A DNA stretch of 64,000 nucleotides, taken from contig CAJYTY010000008.1 of the NCBI GenBank assembly GCA_913777945.1, positions 248,001 through 312,000 on the forward strand, in the 5' to 3' direction. The notes under the pieces were generated by a model. That model searched no databases. It had not been told where the DNA came from and worked only from the letters and a program-made list of their open reading frames with translations. The first letter of the stretch is position 1; each line of letters begins with the position of its first letter. Below are positions 22,741 through 31,302 of the stretch, one piece after another. The position numbers and the translations under genes were made by a program. The DNA is from an uncultured Acinetobacter sp. (GTDB lineage: Bacteria; Pseudomonadota; Gammaproteobacteria; Pseudomonadales; Moraxellaceae).

Positions 22741-23487
22741 TTGCAAAAGGAAAGTACATTGCAGATCAAGAAATTGCTCGGAGGGCTGGTGTTTATTGTG
22801 CTGGCCAGTATTGTCGGTGTTGCGATTGGTATCTGGGTATTTAAACATTTTAATGTGTATATCCCGCTTGAAAATCAGGCCGTGAATATTGATTTACAAG
22901 AACCACTTCAAGCCAAAGTTAAAATTCAGGATGCCTTGAATGTGGATGTGAGCGGACGCGTCAATGCGACCATTCCCATACACGAAAACCTGAATATCCC
23001 ACTCACTCAAACGCTGACGCCGCGAGTGTACTTTGATAATCAGGTGCCGATTAAAACCATTATTCCGGTAAAAGAAGTGCTCAAGGTTCGTCAGGATTTA
23101 CCGATTGATACCAAAGTACAGGTCAGAGTACTCGGACGTGATATCACGCTGCCGATTAAAGGCACCATTCCCATTAACCTAGACGTACCTCTAGACATTC
23201 AAGTGCCACTTGATCAAAACGTCCATCTAAAATTTGATGCGCCTGTGCGAACAGTGCTTCAAGAAAACTTAAATATACCGCTCAACACGACCTTGAAAAC
23301 CAATATTCCAGTCGATGGGCATTTAAATGTACCAATCAAAACTGCACTTGCAGCAAGCGTAGAAGTGAAGAATACCTTGCCTATCAAAATTCAGAAAGGC
23401 GAATTAAAAATTCCGCTGTCTAGCGTGACGCTAAAGAAACAACCCGTTGCTGCTCCCTCAACTGCTGTCCAGTCGGGCGTGCAATAG
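22741..23487 (+). CDS. Membrane-anchored periplasmic protein with repeated beta-strand (xIPIxxxLxV) units
   Basis: N-terminal TM; periodic IPL/IPI/VPL motifs through the rest of the protein; TTG start. Confidence 0.6.
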   Translation: MQKESTLQIKKLLGGLVFIVLASIVGVAIGIWVFKHFNVYIPLENQAVNIDLQEPLQAKVKIQDALNVDVSGRVNATIPIHENLNIPLTQTLTPRVYFDNQVPIKTIIPVKEVLKVRQDLPIDTKVQVRVLGRDITLPIKGTIPINLDVPLDIQVPLDQNVHLKFDAPVRTVLQENLNIPLNTTLKTNIPVDGHLNVPIKTALAASVEVKNTLPIKIQKGELKIPLSSVTLKKQPVAAPSTAVQSGVQ

Positions 23488-23490
23488 GGG

Positions 23491-24177
23491 GTGACTATGT
23501 GGTTATTCGGATCATTGAAACGCACATTACTGAGCTTTGTTGCGGTGGTTGGTCTTGTGGCATTGCTATTTTGGCTTTACCTCAACATTCAGGCTTCCAT
23601 GTATGTTTCAGCGCAGCATGCACAGGTGCAATTATCGGAGTATTTGCCTACACGCATCGAGGTAGGCAACCATTTGGAAACCCATTCTATGGGGCAGCTT
23701 AATACCGATATCCACATTAACCGACAGCTTTCCTTGCCCCTTAAAGGCAAATATCTGGCTCAGTTGGCCTTTGAAGTAGAAACACCTGTTTCTGTGAGTG
23801 TGGATTATTTAACCACCATAAAAATTGATGAACAGATGCCGGTCGAGAGCACGACAGATCTGATTTACCAAAATCAGCTGTTACCTAAATTTCCGCTGAA
23901 AATGAATATTCCGATTCGGCTGGATGTGCCATTTCGTTTGAATCGTACTTATCAGGTGCCCATTAAAATTGTATTTAATGGTCCGGTGTATTTTGAGTTT
24001 GATGAACCAATCAATCTGGCTGTGAAACATCAGTTTAAACCGACTTTGAATATTGATGATCCGATGACCATGCGAAAAGTCGCGACATTTAATGCCATTA
24101 TGTATAACGAGGTAAGAGAAACACAGGCCAATCTGGATATGCACATCCAGTTACCACTACGAAATATACACCCCTAA
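23491..24177 (+). CDS. Membrane-anchored periplasmic beta-strand-repeat protein, paralogue-like partner of the upstream ORF
   Basis: 3-nt intergenic gap; N-terminal TM; the same style of LPLKG/IPIRLDVPF/VPIKIVF units. Confidence 0.6.
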   Translation: MTMWLFGSLKRTLLSFVAVVGLVALLFWLYLNIQASMYVSAQHAQVQLSEYLPTRIEVGNHLETHSMGQLNTDIHINRQLSLPLKGKYLAQLAFEVETPVSVSVDYLTTIKIDEQMPVESTTDLIYQNQLLPKFPLKMNIPIRLDVPFRLNRTYQVPIKIVFNGPVYFEFDEPINLAVKHQFKPTLNIDDPMTMRKVATFNAIMYNEVRETQANLDMHIQLPLRNIHP

Positions 24178-24295
24178 ACGGCTCAAATGAAGATGTTGTT
24201 CTGCATATACAGCAAGCCTCTGCATCGGCTTTCTCGCGTACAGGTGAAATAACTGATTTTATATTCGAGAAATCCTTTAAAATATGGCAGAATAG

Positions 24296-25528
<1,233 letters not shown>

Positions 25529-25546
25529 GACGAACTCGAGGGAAAA

Positions 25547-26680
25547 ATGATTGAAGTGATCGATGGGCAACGACAGCTCAAGGCGTGTAAACGTATCGTT
25601 GTTAAAATCGGATCATCTCTTCTTACCGCCAACGGACAAGGTCTAGATCTAGATGCAATTTCGCATTGGGCAACTCAAATTGCCGATCTACACACTGCCG
25701 GACACGAAATTATATTGGTGTCGTCTGGTGCGGTTGCAGAAGGTATGGTTCGCATGAAGCTTTCGAGCCGACCCACCGATCTACCCAGTCTTCAAGCCTG
25801 TGCGGCCATTGGTCAAATGGGCTTGATTCACACGTGGTCGAGTGTGCTCGATAAGCACTCGATTCAGACGGCTCAAGTCTTGCTGACCCATGATGATCTG
25901 GCAGATCGTCGACGTTATCTCAATTCATGTGATGCTTTGCAAAACCTGATTGAGTGGCGTGTGATTCCGGTGATCAATGAAAATGACACTGTTTCGACCG
26001 ATGAAATTCGTTTTGGCGACAACGATACGCTGGCAGCGATGGTGGCGGGCCAAGTACATGCTGATTTGCTGATTATTTTGACCGATCAGCAAGGGATGTT
26101 TGACTCCGACCCACGCAATAATCCAGAAGCAAAACTGCTCACCATCGTCAATGCACTCGACGATCGTTTGTTTGAAATGGCCGGTGGTGGTGGCGTTTTA
26201 GGCCGCGGCGGTATGGTGACTAAGGTACGTGCAGCACGCTTAGCCGCGAAGTCTGGTTGTCCAACATTGATTGCCAGCGGTGAAAGTGACCGTGTTTTGT
26301 CTCGCTTAATGGCGGGTGAAATGCTCGGAACGCTCTTTAGTACCGATAAAGATCGCATGACTGCGCATCAGCAGTGGCTTGCCGCACATTTGCAAACGGC
26401 TGGTCGTTTAGTCATTGATGATGGTGCCGTCGATGCGATTAAACAGCGTCATCGTAGTTTATTGCCTGTAGGCGTTAAAGCGGTTGAAGGCCATTTTAAT
26501 CGTGGTGATGTGGTTGAGTGTGTTGATCAATTGGGGCAGCGAATTGCGGTTGGGCGAGTGAATTTTAGTTCACGTTCGGCTGAGATCATCAAAGGCCTCG
26601 CTTCAGATAAAGTCTATCAGGTATTGGGTGAAGCTCGATCACTTGAAATGATTCATCGCAATCATATGGCGATTTATTAG
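25547..26680 (+). CDS. proB: Glutamate 5-kinase with PUA domain
   Basis: [33 protein letters not shown]-terminal PUA domain. Confidence 0.97.
26660..26679. repeat. Left copy of 20-bp direct repeat (putative attL) in proB 3' end
   Basis: AATCATATGGCGATTTATTA, identical to 31268-31287. Confidence 0.85.
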
Positions 26681-26866
26681 GAAAAGCATGAAATAACGAT
26701 TAGTAACAAAATCGTTATAAATATACTGAAATATAAGAATTTCTGTTATGGTCTTCAGGTTAGATACTAACTTGCAAAAACATTGAAACACCATTTGGAA
26801 AGAGGTTAGACTGGAGGTTAAAAGGTCTGACCTTTTTTATGCATGATATAAGCTAAAGGTGTGCCA

Positions 26867-26997
26867 ATGCTAACTAAATAACAAATTGATGCTATTAAGC
26901 TAAAGGAAAAGCTATTTAAAGTTAGCGATGGAGATATTTTGTACATTTTTACAACGCCTACAGTGAAAAATTTTGGAGGTGCTTTACACTCTTGAAG
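26867..26997 (+). pseudogene. Truncated tyrosine-recombinase integrase N-terminus (DUF4102/Arm-DNA-binding-like)
   Basis: Translation MLTK*QIDAIKLKEKLFKVSDGDILYIFTTPTVKNFGG resembles the integrase N-terminus (..K.KEK.YKVSDG.GLYL...PSGSK.W); in-frame TAA; cut by the IS left end. Confidence 0.75.
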
Positions 26998-28036
26998 GGC
27001 TTTGTTGCATAAACATTTCAGAGACTAGTTTCCCCCTAACCTATCAAATTCAAGACACAACTCGGGTGTGAGTTCGGCCTAATTCTGTAAATCTGTTGAG
27101 GACTGCCACACGTGCATGAATTTCGTTATCTTGACTGTCAAAATTCCTAGCACTGAGTTTATCGCTTAATAACTTAATGCAATGCATCTTGATTTGAACC
27201 AAACTTCTCCGATGATAACTATACCATTTTTCCATATAGCCCTACCTAAATGCTTAACTGTTCGAAGTGAAGTAATTCATTTCTTTGTAGGGAATGGGTC
27301 TTTGTATCTTTACAAGGCTTCGCGTTCTTTCTAGGTGGAATAACAGCATAGGCTTGCCGATCCGAAATCATCTGCCGAAATTTCTTGGTATCATAAGCAC
27401 CATCGGTATATACGGAGTCAATCTGTTCATCATGTGGAATTTGTTTAAGCAACTCATCAAACACTTGTGAATCACTCACATTGTTTGTTGTGAACTGAAC
27501 TACTCGTATTTTAAGGGTCTTAGCATCTATATCAATATGAAGTTAGCGCCATTGACGACGATATTCAGGCTGATGTTTCTTACGCTTCCATTCGCCTTCA
27601 TCTAAAAAATTTTAACCCTGTAGAGTCGACGAGTAGGTGTAACCCATCACGACTTTTCTGATAGCTTATCAGAATATCAACATGCTTTTGTCTGCTACAC
27701 AGCGTACTGTAATCTGGTGCTGTCCAATTTAAACCACAGTGTTTAGTCAGGCTTTGAGCAAAGATAGTGACCATGCATAAAGAAAGACAGAATAGAGATT
27801 CGATCATTAAACGGCATTGAGTCTCTGTATCGGAATAAGTTTGATTTCGTCCATGCTTGCCTTGTGGTTGTGCATACCATTGGATCTCGGGATCAGATTG
27901 AAATATTTCCTCGCTCGATTAAAGCTGGGTTATACGAGGACCAATTAATTGTACGGTAGATTTTAGGGATAGGCTTCTTGATCTAGAACTTATGTTACTG
28001 AAGAAGCCTTCAAGAATAGCTTTGTGCAACAAAGCC
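26998..28036 (-). mobile_element. IS5-family insertion sequence remnant
   Basis: Terminal inverted repeats GGCTTTGTTGCATAAA / GGCTTTGTTGCACAAA at 26998 and 28036, enclosing a broken transposase. Confidence 0.85.
27050..27960 (-). pseudogene. IS5-family transposase, frameshifted and with internal stops
   Basis: Fragments GLNWTAPDYSTLCSRQKHVDILISYQKSRDGLHLLVDSTGLKF; VYTDGAYDTKKFRQMISDRQAYAVIPPRKNAKP; YHRRSLVQIKMHCIKLLSDKLSARNF. They are collinear but in separate ORFs. Confidence 0.88.
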
Positions 28037-28145
28037 ACTTTGTGTTCACCTTTTTGAAACGTTACAAATAAACCAAACAGAGTATTTATATTTATATAAA
28101 AAAACATTAATGTTTGATTAAATACAAATATATACTTGAAAGAAG

Positions 28146-31100
28146 ATGATTAACGAAATTAGTAAGCTAATACAAGAAAACTTGAGAGAATGTCAAGTAA
28201 AAAGTATTGAAGTAATTGCAAAATATTTAAGATCAAAAAGCGAAGGATCTTGCTTAATTAGTTTACCAACTGGAGCAGGTAAGAGTGGTGTAATTTGTAC
28301 AGTAAGCCACAATTGTAAATATAAAAAACTACTGATTGTAACGCACAGAAGAGCGGTGTGTGATCAATTATATAAACAATTAAAAGGTAAGTTTTTTGAA
28401 AAGATATTACCTGAAGGATTTAATTATAAGTCATTCATAAAAAAAGATATTTTTAATGATATTGATGATATTTCTAAAGATGGTGTGTATTGTACTACAT
28501 TCCAAAAAATTACTGGTTTGAGTGAAAGTGAGCTATTGGTATTAAAAAATTCTTTTGATCTTATTTTGATAGATGAAGGACATGCAGAACCATCTCCGAA
28601 ATGGGGTGCTACTATAAGAGAACTAGTAGCCAAAAAAATAATTATTACAGCTACTCCATATAGAAATGATCTATTTAGTTTTGATATAGATGTTAAGCAT
28701 AGTTATATCTATACATATAAAAAAGCTACAGAAGATAATGTTATTGTACAACCTTGTTTTGATACTATTAACATGGGTCAATTAACTCTAAAAATTAGAG
28801 AGTTAAAAGAAAAACAACCAGATTCAATTTGTATAGTTAAGTGTAAAAATTTTTCTGATATTCAACACTACTTTAGTGAATTTACTTCTACATTTCGAAC
28901 AGTTGCTATTCATGATCAATATGAAACTAATCAAGAAGAACATAAATATAATTATGTCCCACAAAATTTAGCCGAATTAGGATATGAGGTGTTAATACAT
29001 CAACGAAAACTTGATGAAGGTATTGATATTCCAGAGGCAAAAATTTTAATTCTTACTTATCCTGTTAGAAGTGGTAAAGAATTGGTGCAAACTATAGGAA
29101 GGGTGGTAAGGGTCTATAAAAATTATCAACCTACAGTACTAGAGGTTGGTGTAGAAAAAAATTATAATTTATGGAAAAATTATCTCGAATTTGATGAATA
29201 TATTACAAATGAAAATTCGGCTAATAGATTTTTAAATACCCTAAATACAGCAAATTTAATTGATAAATACTTAGACGCATTTCCTGAACGAAGTTATTTT
29301 GAATCCAATTATCGAAAAAAATTTAATTTTAAGGAATTTAATCCTACTGAATCTTTAGAAATTCCTTTAGCTTCGGTTTGTTTTTATAATAAATTAGATA
29401 ATTTTAATTTATATGATTGTTTAGATAAACTACATTGGGACTTTACTAGAGAAGGTGCCTTATCTAAATATGATTCAGAATTGGGGGTTATAACAGCAGT
29501 TTGTTTTAATAACTCTAAGTTTTTGAAAGATAGCTTATTTTTTGAACCTTCTTTAGAGATACTAATAATAAAAGAATTGGATGATATTGTAGCTATTTTT
29601 GATAGTTGTGGGCGAAAATTTAATGGTAGAGATGAGCTAAGAATTGGTAGAGCGATTAATGTTGATAAATTATTTACCGTTGTATCTTCAACCAAAAAAA
29701 CTATAACCAAACAAGCTAATACTCGAGCTTTACAACACAGCTTAAGCCGTGCTGAGGGGATTGCTCTTAAAGCAGAAAATTTAGAACTTATCAATCACGA
29801 ACAATCAAACTCTGGATATGCGATAACTACTACAGTTGTCTCAAATGTTGATGATAATGATAAAATTATTTCGTCTTATTATTTGGGAGTTGCATCCGGT
29901 AGAATTTCTGACCAGAAAAACTCTAAGTTCACCTATGCAGAATTCATGGAGTGGTTAGAAGGTATTAATAAACATCTTCAGTCAAAGAAAAAACCAGCAA
30001 GTAATTTTCTTAATTCTTTTGCTCAATCTGTAGATTATATTCCTACAGATGATCCAGTAGCTTGTATCTTAGATTTTACAGATACTAAATTTGACGACTT
30101 GACAATTGAGTTTGATGGTTTTAAACAATCTATAGATAATAATTTTATTTATAAGAAGTATAATAATGGGATTTACTTTTTTAAGCTTTTTTATCAAAAA
30201 GATGATGATTTGATCGAAGAATTAAAAAATTTTATTAAGTTTTCATTTAATGAAAAATTAGAATTAATTGCTGAATGTGATTCAAGTATCAAATTTTTTA
30301 TTGATCAAGCATTAGTTGAGTTGAAAGATGTTTTTAATGAAAATACAGTTAAGTTATTATATAGAGATGGGACTGTATATTTAAATAAATATTTTTATAA
30401 ACAGGTATTACCAACTCAAAGTGGAAAAATAAATCAAAATATCATTAAAAATATTATTCCGATGGTATGCTTAAAAAATAAACAACTGTCTGAAAAAGAC
30501 GAAGATAATTTGATTAATAATAAATTTAGTCCTAACTCAATTTTTCATTTAATTGATCAAGTCGCCAATATACAAAATCCAAATGTAAGATATAGTGATT
30601 TGGGGCAATTCTATCAATATATTCCTAATGTAGATCTAGTGCTTTGTACAGATATGGGAACTGAACCTGCAGATTTTATTCTTTCTTCTAAAGAAAAAGT
30701 TGTTTTTGTTCATATAAAATGTGGAAATAGACCTCAACGACCTAAGTCTTCAGCTGGTGCACTTTGCGAAGTAGGAGGCCAAGCATTAAAAAATTTACAT
30801 TACTTAGTGAGTAGTAGCCCTCTAAGGTATGGAAATATTACTAATCTTCAAGGGGATTGGCCGAGTCCTACAGGCAATAATCAAGGTAATAAGCTAAATC
30901 GAATTAGATTATTTAATAAAACTTTTGATATTAATCATATGCTTAATGATGTTTTATCTAAAATTGAGGAAAGAAGATTAGATCCCTTGGTGAAAAAAGA
31001 AATCTGGATTGTGGTAGGAAATGCATTTTCATACGACCACTTTGTATCGCAATTCGATAACCCGAGTTTGGCTGCTCCAGCAACCATCCAAGCCTATCAG

Positions 31101-31169
31101 TTACTTGATACATGGTTTAGTCAAGCTAATGCACATAATGTAGATTTAAAGATTTTTACATCAGTGTGA
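28146..31169 (+). CDS. SF2 DEAD/DEAH-box (ResIII-like) helicase with C-terminal PD-(D/E)XK-like nuclease signature; candidate defence protein
   Basis: SLPTGAGKS (Walker A), LILIDEGHAEPS (DEGH), ITATPYR, QTIGRVVR (motif VI); C-terminal DMGTEPADFI..VVFVHIKCG..GGQALKNLHY. Confidence 0.8.
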   Translation: MINEISKLIQENLRECQVKSIEVIAKYLRSKSEGSCLISLPTGAGKSGVICTVSHNCKYKKLLIVTHRRAVCDQLYKQLKGKFFEKILPEGFNYKSFIKKDIFNDIDDISKDGVYCTTFQKITGLSESELLVLKNSFDLILIDEGHAEPSPKWGATIRELVAKKIIITATPYRNDLFSFDIDVKHSYIYTYKKATEDNVIVQPCFDTINMGQLTLKIRELKEKQPDSICIVKCKNFSDIQHYFSEFTSTFRTVAIHDQYETNQEEHKYNYVPQNLAELGYEVLIHQRKLDEGIDIPEAKILILTYPVRSGKELVQTIGRVVRVYKNYQPTVLEVGVEKNYNLWKNYLEFDEYITNENSANRFLNTLNTANLIDKYLDAFPERSYFESNYRKKFNFKEFNPTESLEIPLASVCFYNKLDNFNLYDCLDKLHWDFTREGALSKYDSELGVITAVCFNNSKFLKDSLFFEPSLEILIIKELDDIVAIFDSCGRKFNGRDELRIGRAINVDKLFTVVSSTKKTITKQANTRALQHSLSRAEGIALKAENLELINHEQSNSGYAITTTVVSNVDDNDKIISSYYLGVASGRISDQKNSKFTYAEFMEWLEGINKHLQSKKKPASNFLNSFAQSVDYIPTDDPVACILDFTDTKFDDLTIEFDGFKQSIDNNFIYKKYNNGIYFFKLFYQKDDDLIEELKNFIKFSFNEKLELIAECDSSIKFFIDQALVELKDVFNENTVKLLYRDGTVYLNKYFYKQVLPTQSGKINQNIIKNIIPMVCLKNKQLSEKDEDNLINNKFSPNSIFHLIDQVANIQNPNVRYSDLGQFYQYIPNVDLVLCTDMGTEPADFILSSKEKVVFVHIKCGNRPQRPKSSAGALCEVGGQALKNLHYLVSSSPLRYGNITNLQGDWPSPTGNNQGNKLNRIRLFNKTFDINHMLNDVLSKIEERRLDPLVKKEIWIVVGNAFSYDHFVSQFDNPSLAAPATIQAYQLLDTWFSQANAHNVDLKIFTSV

Positions 31170-31267: not shown

Positions 31268-31287
31268 AATCATATGGCGATTTATTA
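31268..31287. repeat. Right copy of 20-bp direct repeat (putative attR)
   Basis: AATCATATGGCGATTTATTA, identical to the proB 3' end. Confidence 0.85.
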
Positions 31288-31302
31288 AGATCCAATGTGA
31301 AC

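Follow-up and report, generated by a model that had tools for sequence, protein, structure and literature searches.

A decayed proB-site element of Acinetobacter carries a candidate single-protein helicase-nuclease defense system

The window analyzed here is a 64-kb stretch of DNA from an Acinetobacter genome. Within it lies a 4.6 kb element bounded by two copies of the 3' end of proB, which form a 23-bp direct repeat (22/23 identical). The sole intact gene between the repeats encodes a protein with an N-terminal helicase and a C-terminal domain that resembles PD-(D/E)XK nucleases. The features, all within the window, are these:

26660..26682, + strand: attL, the 3' end of proB, AATCATATGGCGATTTATTAGGA; direct repeat, a motif that ends proB in other Acinetobacter
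26867..26995, + strand: N-terminal stub of a decayed tyrosine integrase, with an in-frame stop and then cut by an insertion sequence
26998..28036, - strand: IS5-family insertion sequence with a broken transposase; 16-bp terminal inverted repeats GGCTTTGTTGCATAAA / TTTGTGCAACAAAGCC
28146..31169, + strand: helicase-nuclease gene, 1007 aa, intact open reading frame with full-length homologs
28179..28664, + strand: SF2 RecA-like lobe 1, residues 12-173 (Pfam ResIII); Walker A K46 and DEGH 143-146, invariant in homolog alignment A3
28761..29147, + strand: SF2 RecA-like lobe 2, residues ~206-334 (Pfam Helicase_C); profile match to XPB/UvrB/RadD
29151..30500, + strand: middle region, residues 336-785, largely beta in predicted secondary structure, no known domain
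30501..31166, + strand: C-terminal PD-(D/E)XK-like domain, residues 786-1007, from an AlphaFold2 model, invariant residues and weak Foldseek matches
31268..31290, + strand: attR, the second copy of the proB 3' end, AATCATATGGCGATTTATTAAGA; direct repeat

Where relatives have the motif only once, proB leads directly into the intergenic region, usually with a terminator-like hairpin; in the window a hairpin of this kind lies downstream of attR and is followed by a HAD gene. The integrase stub reads MLTK*QIDAIKLKEKLFKVSDGDILYIFTTP... and matches the complete integrase of another proB-site element, L025 (57% over 42 aa, E 1e-10, tblastn), which has Arm-DNA-bind_3 and Phage_integrase domains. The insertion sequence is about 82% identical to intact IS5-family elements on Acinetobacter plasmids and retains only short transposase frames. 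Its att repeats, its integrase stub and its complete Acinetobacter relatives identify the window element, as judged from sequence, as a decayed, phage-satellite-like element inserted at the end of proB. The initial annotation had proposed an integrated element with one intact gene, and the repeats, the stub and the broken IS5-family copy bear this out. Its account of the gene was equally sound as to the 1007-aa intact frame, the helicase motifs and the AT-richness (28.7% GC, versus about 43% across most of the window), and erred in placing the Walker A lysine at K45, which is in fact K46.

The proB motif also flanks other elements in other Acinetobacter, and it occurs twice, a few kilobases apart, in genomes G000, G104, G145 and G162. 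The element of G162, L025, carries an AlpA-like excisionase and a HEC-01A/B pair recognized by PADLOC in addition to its integrase. By eye, the cargo in G145 (L024) looks like type VI secretion. In G104 (L023, 2185-6047), an 843-aa AAA protein and a 444-aa partner lie between the proB repeats, with no integrase; by eye this pair looks McrB/McrC-like and is a candidate defense cargo, and PADLOC matched the AAA protein only in part, to REase_II and PD-T4-1, and the second frame not at all. Relatives of the L025 integrase at E<=1e-80 are present in 12 of 176 Acinetobacter genomes. At the five of these loci that we examined (L070-L074), the integrase lies directly downstream of proB and the second proB repeat 1.8-10.6 kb away. 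Among the elements tested, L070 and L071 have primase/helicase genes, L071 together with an excisionase and an anti-repressor, and L070 together with a phage major head protein and an HNH endonuclease. Elements of 7-11 kb (L070, L071, L072, L073 and L025, in G051, G067, G058, G110 and G162, respectively) have an integrase, an excisionase and often a primase, with a capsid gene in some. This profile of integrase, excisionase, primase and phage head gene is why we call them phage-satellite-like, and they appear to form a family of Acinetobacter elements that share one fixed integration site. In Acinetobacter, satellite-like elements and defense-like cargo have thus landed repeatedly at the 3' end of proB.

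The N-terminal third of the window protein is an SF2 helicase. Motifs I, II, III and VI are all present (PTGAGKS 41-47, IDEGH 142-146, TATPYR 168-173 and IGRVVR 317-322) and invariant in A3, motif VI reading QTIGRVVR at residues 315-322, within lobe 2. Pfam assigns residues 12-173 to ResIII (65.1 bits, cut-off 22.5, E 9.3e-18) and residues 220-323 to Helicase_C (30.4 bits, cut-off 23.5, E 4.9e-7); at E<=0.001 the whole protein matches ResIII, SWI2_SNF2, Helicase_C and DEAD and no further family, and the ~680 residues beyond the helicase (residues 12-323) match no Pfam family. Among PDB profiles, the listed matches are XPB, MDA5, UvrB and RadD. Foldseek comparison of the full-length model with the PDB found RadD, XPB, SauUSI and HsdR, each on the helicase core only, and no listed match spans the entire protein (TMq 0.27 or less). 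For the AlphaFold2 model of the whole chain, mean pLDDT is 80 and pTM 0.46, so that the arrangement of the domains is uncertain. In the middle region Y579, G581, R586, D589 and W603 are invariant; this part of the protein has no Pfam match at E<=1 in the 13 homologs searched, and on its own it found no PDB relative by profile search.

The C-terminal motif, first described as DMGTEPADFI...VVFVHIKCG, had been read as a PD-(D/E)XK-like signature. Modeled alone with AlphaFold2 (pLDDT 87.4, pTM 0.87), the C-terminal domain has the element order H14-25, E46-49, E59-62, E66-73, H86-97, ... E165-172; D843 lies at or just before beta-2, beta-3 ends with K858, and Q879 and K882 fall in the following helix. 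Judged by this sequence of secondary-structure elements, the PD-(D/E)XK order is predicted with good confidence. D836, E840, D843, H856, K858 (the lysine of 'HIK'), Q879, K882 and N883 are invariant in 22 homologs (alignment A4), and the invariance of H856 and K858 means that the canonical (D/E)xK is here HxK, a replacement that could signify an inactive or altered nuclease. Foldseek gave no match for the domain at E<=0.001. Its best matches, all weak, were Avs3 (0.033), CdiA-CT (0.12) and HincII (from 0.16), with Cap4 and Hjc lower in the list and unrelated folds mixed in; we take these five to be PD-(D/E)XK nucleases or proteins with such a domain. Searches of the domain alone against Pfam and PDB profiles returned nothing, including no Pfam nuclease. 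The predicted element order and D843 and K858, invariant at the expected positions, speak for the proposed signature; the weak Foldseek scores and histidine in place of D/E speak against it. On balance, a PD-(D/E)XK-like fold is likely, and the domain is a putative nuclease.

Homologs with 64-66% identity were found in five other Acinetobacter species (177 genomes searched). Compared pairwise with other members of the family in Acinetobacter, the window gene has a dN/dS of 0.16-0.17; split by region, the comparison with L026 gives 0.11 for the helicase, 0.20 for the middle and 0.16 for the C terminus, figures that are rough because dS, at ~1.6, is near saturation. The protein has nonetheless been kept by purifying selection along the whole gene, and these homologs and a dN/dS of about 0.16 together argue that the gene is more than a chance reading frame.

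Beyond Acinetobacter, 13 plasmid records have a match covering at least 80% of the query. IncHI2A plasmids of Enterobacteriaceae carry a homolog at about 52% identity, and a Mycobacterium avium plasmid one at 23%. A copy at least 99% identical to the plasmid version is present in 19 of 5,426 E. coli genomes, 15 of these copies being chromosomal; in all four chromosomes examined it adjoins ydeT, and in three of these hipA lies at the opposite side of the island. Scanning genomes with an alignment that covered the C-terminal two-thirds yielded 21 loci and one actinobacterial MAG, the loci coming from Acinetobacter, Psychrobacter, Raoultella, Proteus, Pseudomonas, Colwellia, Luteibacter, Paraburkholderia and others. 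Between Raoultella planticola and Samsonia erythrinae the gene is 98.6% identical at the nucleotide level, which indicates recent transfer. The family is rare, since a phylum-wide sample of 399 genomes gave, at E<=1e-60, the window's own genome only. The phage collection searched gave nothing beyond generic helicase similarity, and a scan of IMG/VR with the single protein had no match. With the alignment, IMG/VR gave one fragment, 65% identical, on a possibly chimeric contig (L057) where phage-like genes occur together with MerR/mercury-type and other genes; we set it aside. Gene copies broken by frameshifts, IS insertions or truncation occur at L007, L009, L029, L044 and L045, which suggests frequent loss, as expected of a costly defense gene. 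Overall, homologs are rare, patchy and mobile. Their presence on conjugative plasmids, in three-integrase islands, in Tn7-like neighborhoods and at RM loci refutes a core, non-mobile context.

We read the neighborhoods of these homologs locus by locus, so that their association with defense genes is qualitative. The E. coli loci have a module of two integrases with genes for 788 and 148 aa, which matches the published GInt organization (PMC10121019), and an A. pittii locus (L027) has the same kind of integrase module. One E. coli homolog (L015) is followed directly by a 2021-aa Avs1b-like STAND protein (23381-29446), a pair that also travels on IncHI2A plasmids; another (L014) has an Avs4 protein upstream. 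HsdR, HsdM and HsdS lie directly upstream of the Cognaticolwellia homolog (L036), with a dynamin-like GTPase downstream. Mrr and HipA flank the Pseudomonas guryensis homolog (L042) upstream and downstream, respectively, Dcm and a GHKL ATPase are near the truncated one of Stutzerimonas (L044), and AbiV is near that of Sinorhizobium (L022). On the M. avium plasmid (L011), TnsA-like and Mu-transposase-type genes lie downstream. No known defense gene was seen near several homologs, for example at L017, L028, L030-L032 and L041. A 1343-aa protein (L037, 4771-8802) is encoded 55 bp upstream of the Raoultella planticola homolog; its N terminus carries an HTH that is close to RM control proteins, and the rest of it has no known domain. 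In A. pittii (L027, 11886-13613) and a second Acinetobacter (L019), a frame of 574-575 aa with no Pfam or PADLOC match overlaps the end of the helicase gene, and its product is a possible partner in that branch. As had been claimed, no methylase or specificity partner adjoins the gene in the window. Because partner genes vary between loci, the 'single-gene' nature of the putative system is supported.

These observations lead us to propose, with a probability of about 0.65, that the window gene encodes a mobile, single-polypeptide, ATP-driven defense protein of the restriction type. The helicase motifs, the predicted nuclease core, purifying selection, patchy mobile distribution and defense-gene neighbors all point this way, and we also counted the AAA and McrC-like pair (identified by eye) and the HEC-01A/B pair on other proB-site elements. 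In the proposed mechanism, the beta-rich middle region would sense a feature of invading DNA, such as ends, replication intermediates or modification; the RadD/XPB/HsdR-like motor would hydrolyze ATP and move or open the DNA; and the C-terminal domain would cut it. Phages or competing mobile elements could thus be blocked without a methylase or specificity partner. The mobile lone helicase with a nuclease-like C terminus that was put forward as a candidate is supported as far as sequence goes, and the protein is probably an undescribed single-protein defense system. We give even odds to the fuller proposal of an undescribed immune family in which an SF2 translocase, a new beta-rich sensor of ~450 aa and an HxK-type PD-(D/E)XK nuclease act together, found in gamma- and betaproteobacteria and, in more distant forms, in rhizobia and actinobacteria.

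Four other explanations have to be weighed. The protein might be a modification-dependent, type IV-like restriction enzyme that, much like SauUSI, recognizes modified bases, here through its middle region. The single-protein organization, the lack of a companion methylase in the window and the helicase profile match to SauUSI (7clg) all favor this idea. However, Pfam and PDB profile searches of the middle region revealed no known reader domain. Moreover, the SauUSI nuclease has a phospholipase-D-type fold, whereas the nuclease-like domain here is C-terminal and PD-(D/E)XK-like. We consider this explanation unlikely, although it survives best of the four.

Next in standing, and also unlikely, is the idea that motor and sensor defend while the C terminus has a PD-(D/E)XK-like binding fold and is not a nuclease. 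The helicase would then be the effector, for example by unwinding or blocking phage replication forks, and the fold would bind DNA or protein. The residue two before K858 fits such a loss of catalysis, being histidine in 22 of 22 A4 members and V or A, where the canonical acidic residue is expected, in two rhizobial homologs; the weak Foldseek support for nucleases fits it as well. Against it, D836, E840, D843 and K858 are kept even in homologs only about 22% identical, an invariance that is hard to explain if these residues are purely structural.

The closest solved helicase relatives, RadD and XPB, could instead suggest that the protein helps the mobile element in DNA repair or replication and has no anti-phage role. 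This is quite improbable. The gene rides on unrelated elements (at the proB site, in three-integrase islands, on conjugative plasmids and beside a Tn7-like module) and is therefore not tied to one replication mode; complete proB-site elements have their own primase/helicase and not the helicase-nuclease gene; and co-location with defense genes recurs. Least probable of all is that the gene is a passenger, already non-functional in the window genome and intact by chance on a decaying element: the surrounding integrase and IS are dead and several homologs are broken, but the 1007-codon frame is open, all residues invariant in A3 are kept, and dN/dS is low.

Finally, we compared the proposed defense protein with known systems. 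The claim that it matches no named system holds for the PADLOC, NCBIfam and Pfam libraries searched. PADLOC 2.0.0 contains no full-length family for it; its best matches cover at most about 108 residues, and the best of them, PbeA of the Pbe restriction system (E 1.1e-11), is confined to ~108 residues of helicase lobe 2. No NCBIfam family covers the protein: the score with the RadD model is 35.7, where its cut-off is 720, and a Dnd-associated helicase match is partial and far below its cut-off. Searches by protein accession and topic, in an incomplete set of open-access papers, turned up no account of the family and no phage or plasmid challenge data for it. In the main text of the DefensePredictor paper (PMC13092281), the word 'helicase' does not occur.

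RadD and XPB provide the nearest solved helicase cores (7r7j, E 1.7e-12 by Foldseek; 6p4f, E 1.5e-14 by profile), but neither matches the middle region or C terminus. The three-integrase islands of the GInt/Tn6571 family (PMC10121019) share their organization with the four-gene module adjoining the E. coli and A. pittii homologs, whereas the window copy sits on a proB-site tyrosine-integrase element. HsdR proteins (EcoR124I and others) combine an SF2 motor, which matches structurally, with a PD-(D/E)XK nuclease in one chain, a combination predicted for the window protein too. Their nuclease is N-terminal, however, and they require HsdM and HsdS, whereas the nuclease-like domain of the window protein is C-terminal and has no partner. 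We rejected type I restriction because no HsdM or HsdS lies next to the window gene; an HsdR/M/S set is found beside a homolog at L036 only, and it includes its own HsdR.

The type IV restriction enzyme SauUSI depends on ATP and consists of one polypeptide with a helicase of the ResIII type, a plan that we propose here as well. Its Foldseek match (E 7.7e-11, TMq 0.23) involves the helicase only, and we rejected membership because we required a full-length match that takes in its nuclease and reader domains. Hna, a helicase-nuclease abortive infection protein of Sinorhizobium meliloti, has 845 aa, and its helicase is DinG/XPD-like with an Arch domain that is reduced (PMC13381803). The anti-phage Hna resembles the window protein in being a single protein with an N-terminal SF2 helicase and a C-terminal PD-(D/E)XK-type nuclease, which here is predicted. 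The window protein differs in its 1007 aa, its ResIII/RadD/XPB-like helicase, its extra middle region of ~450 aa and its HxK motif, and identity with Hna was rejected on helicase type, given the ResIII-type Pfam families and the XPB/MDA5/UvrB/RadD profiles. Acinetobacter and E. coli, the latter on plasmids and chromosomes, have relatives 52-66% identical, which makes direct testing feasible in laboratory strains. Single-protein helicase-nucleases (Hna, Nhi and SauUSI) are a small, mechanistically informative class of bacterial immunity. The window protein appears to share the plan of Hna or SauUSI while belonging to neither by the tests run, and, if our reading is correct, the class gains a family whose motor is different, whose middle region is unannotated and whose nuclease motif is altered.
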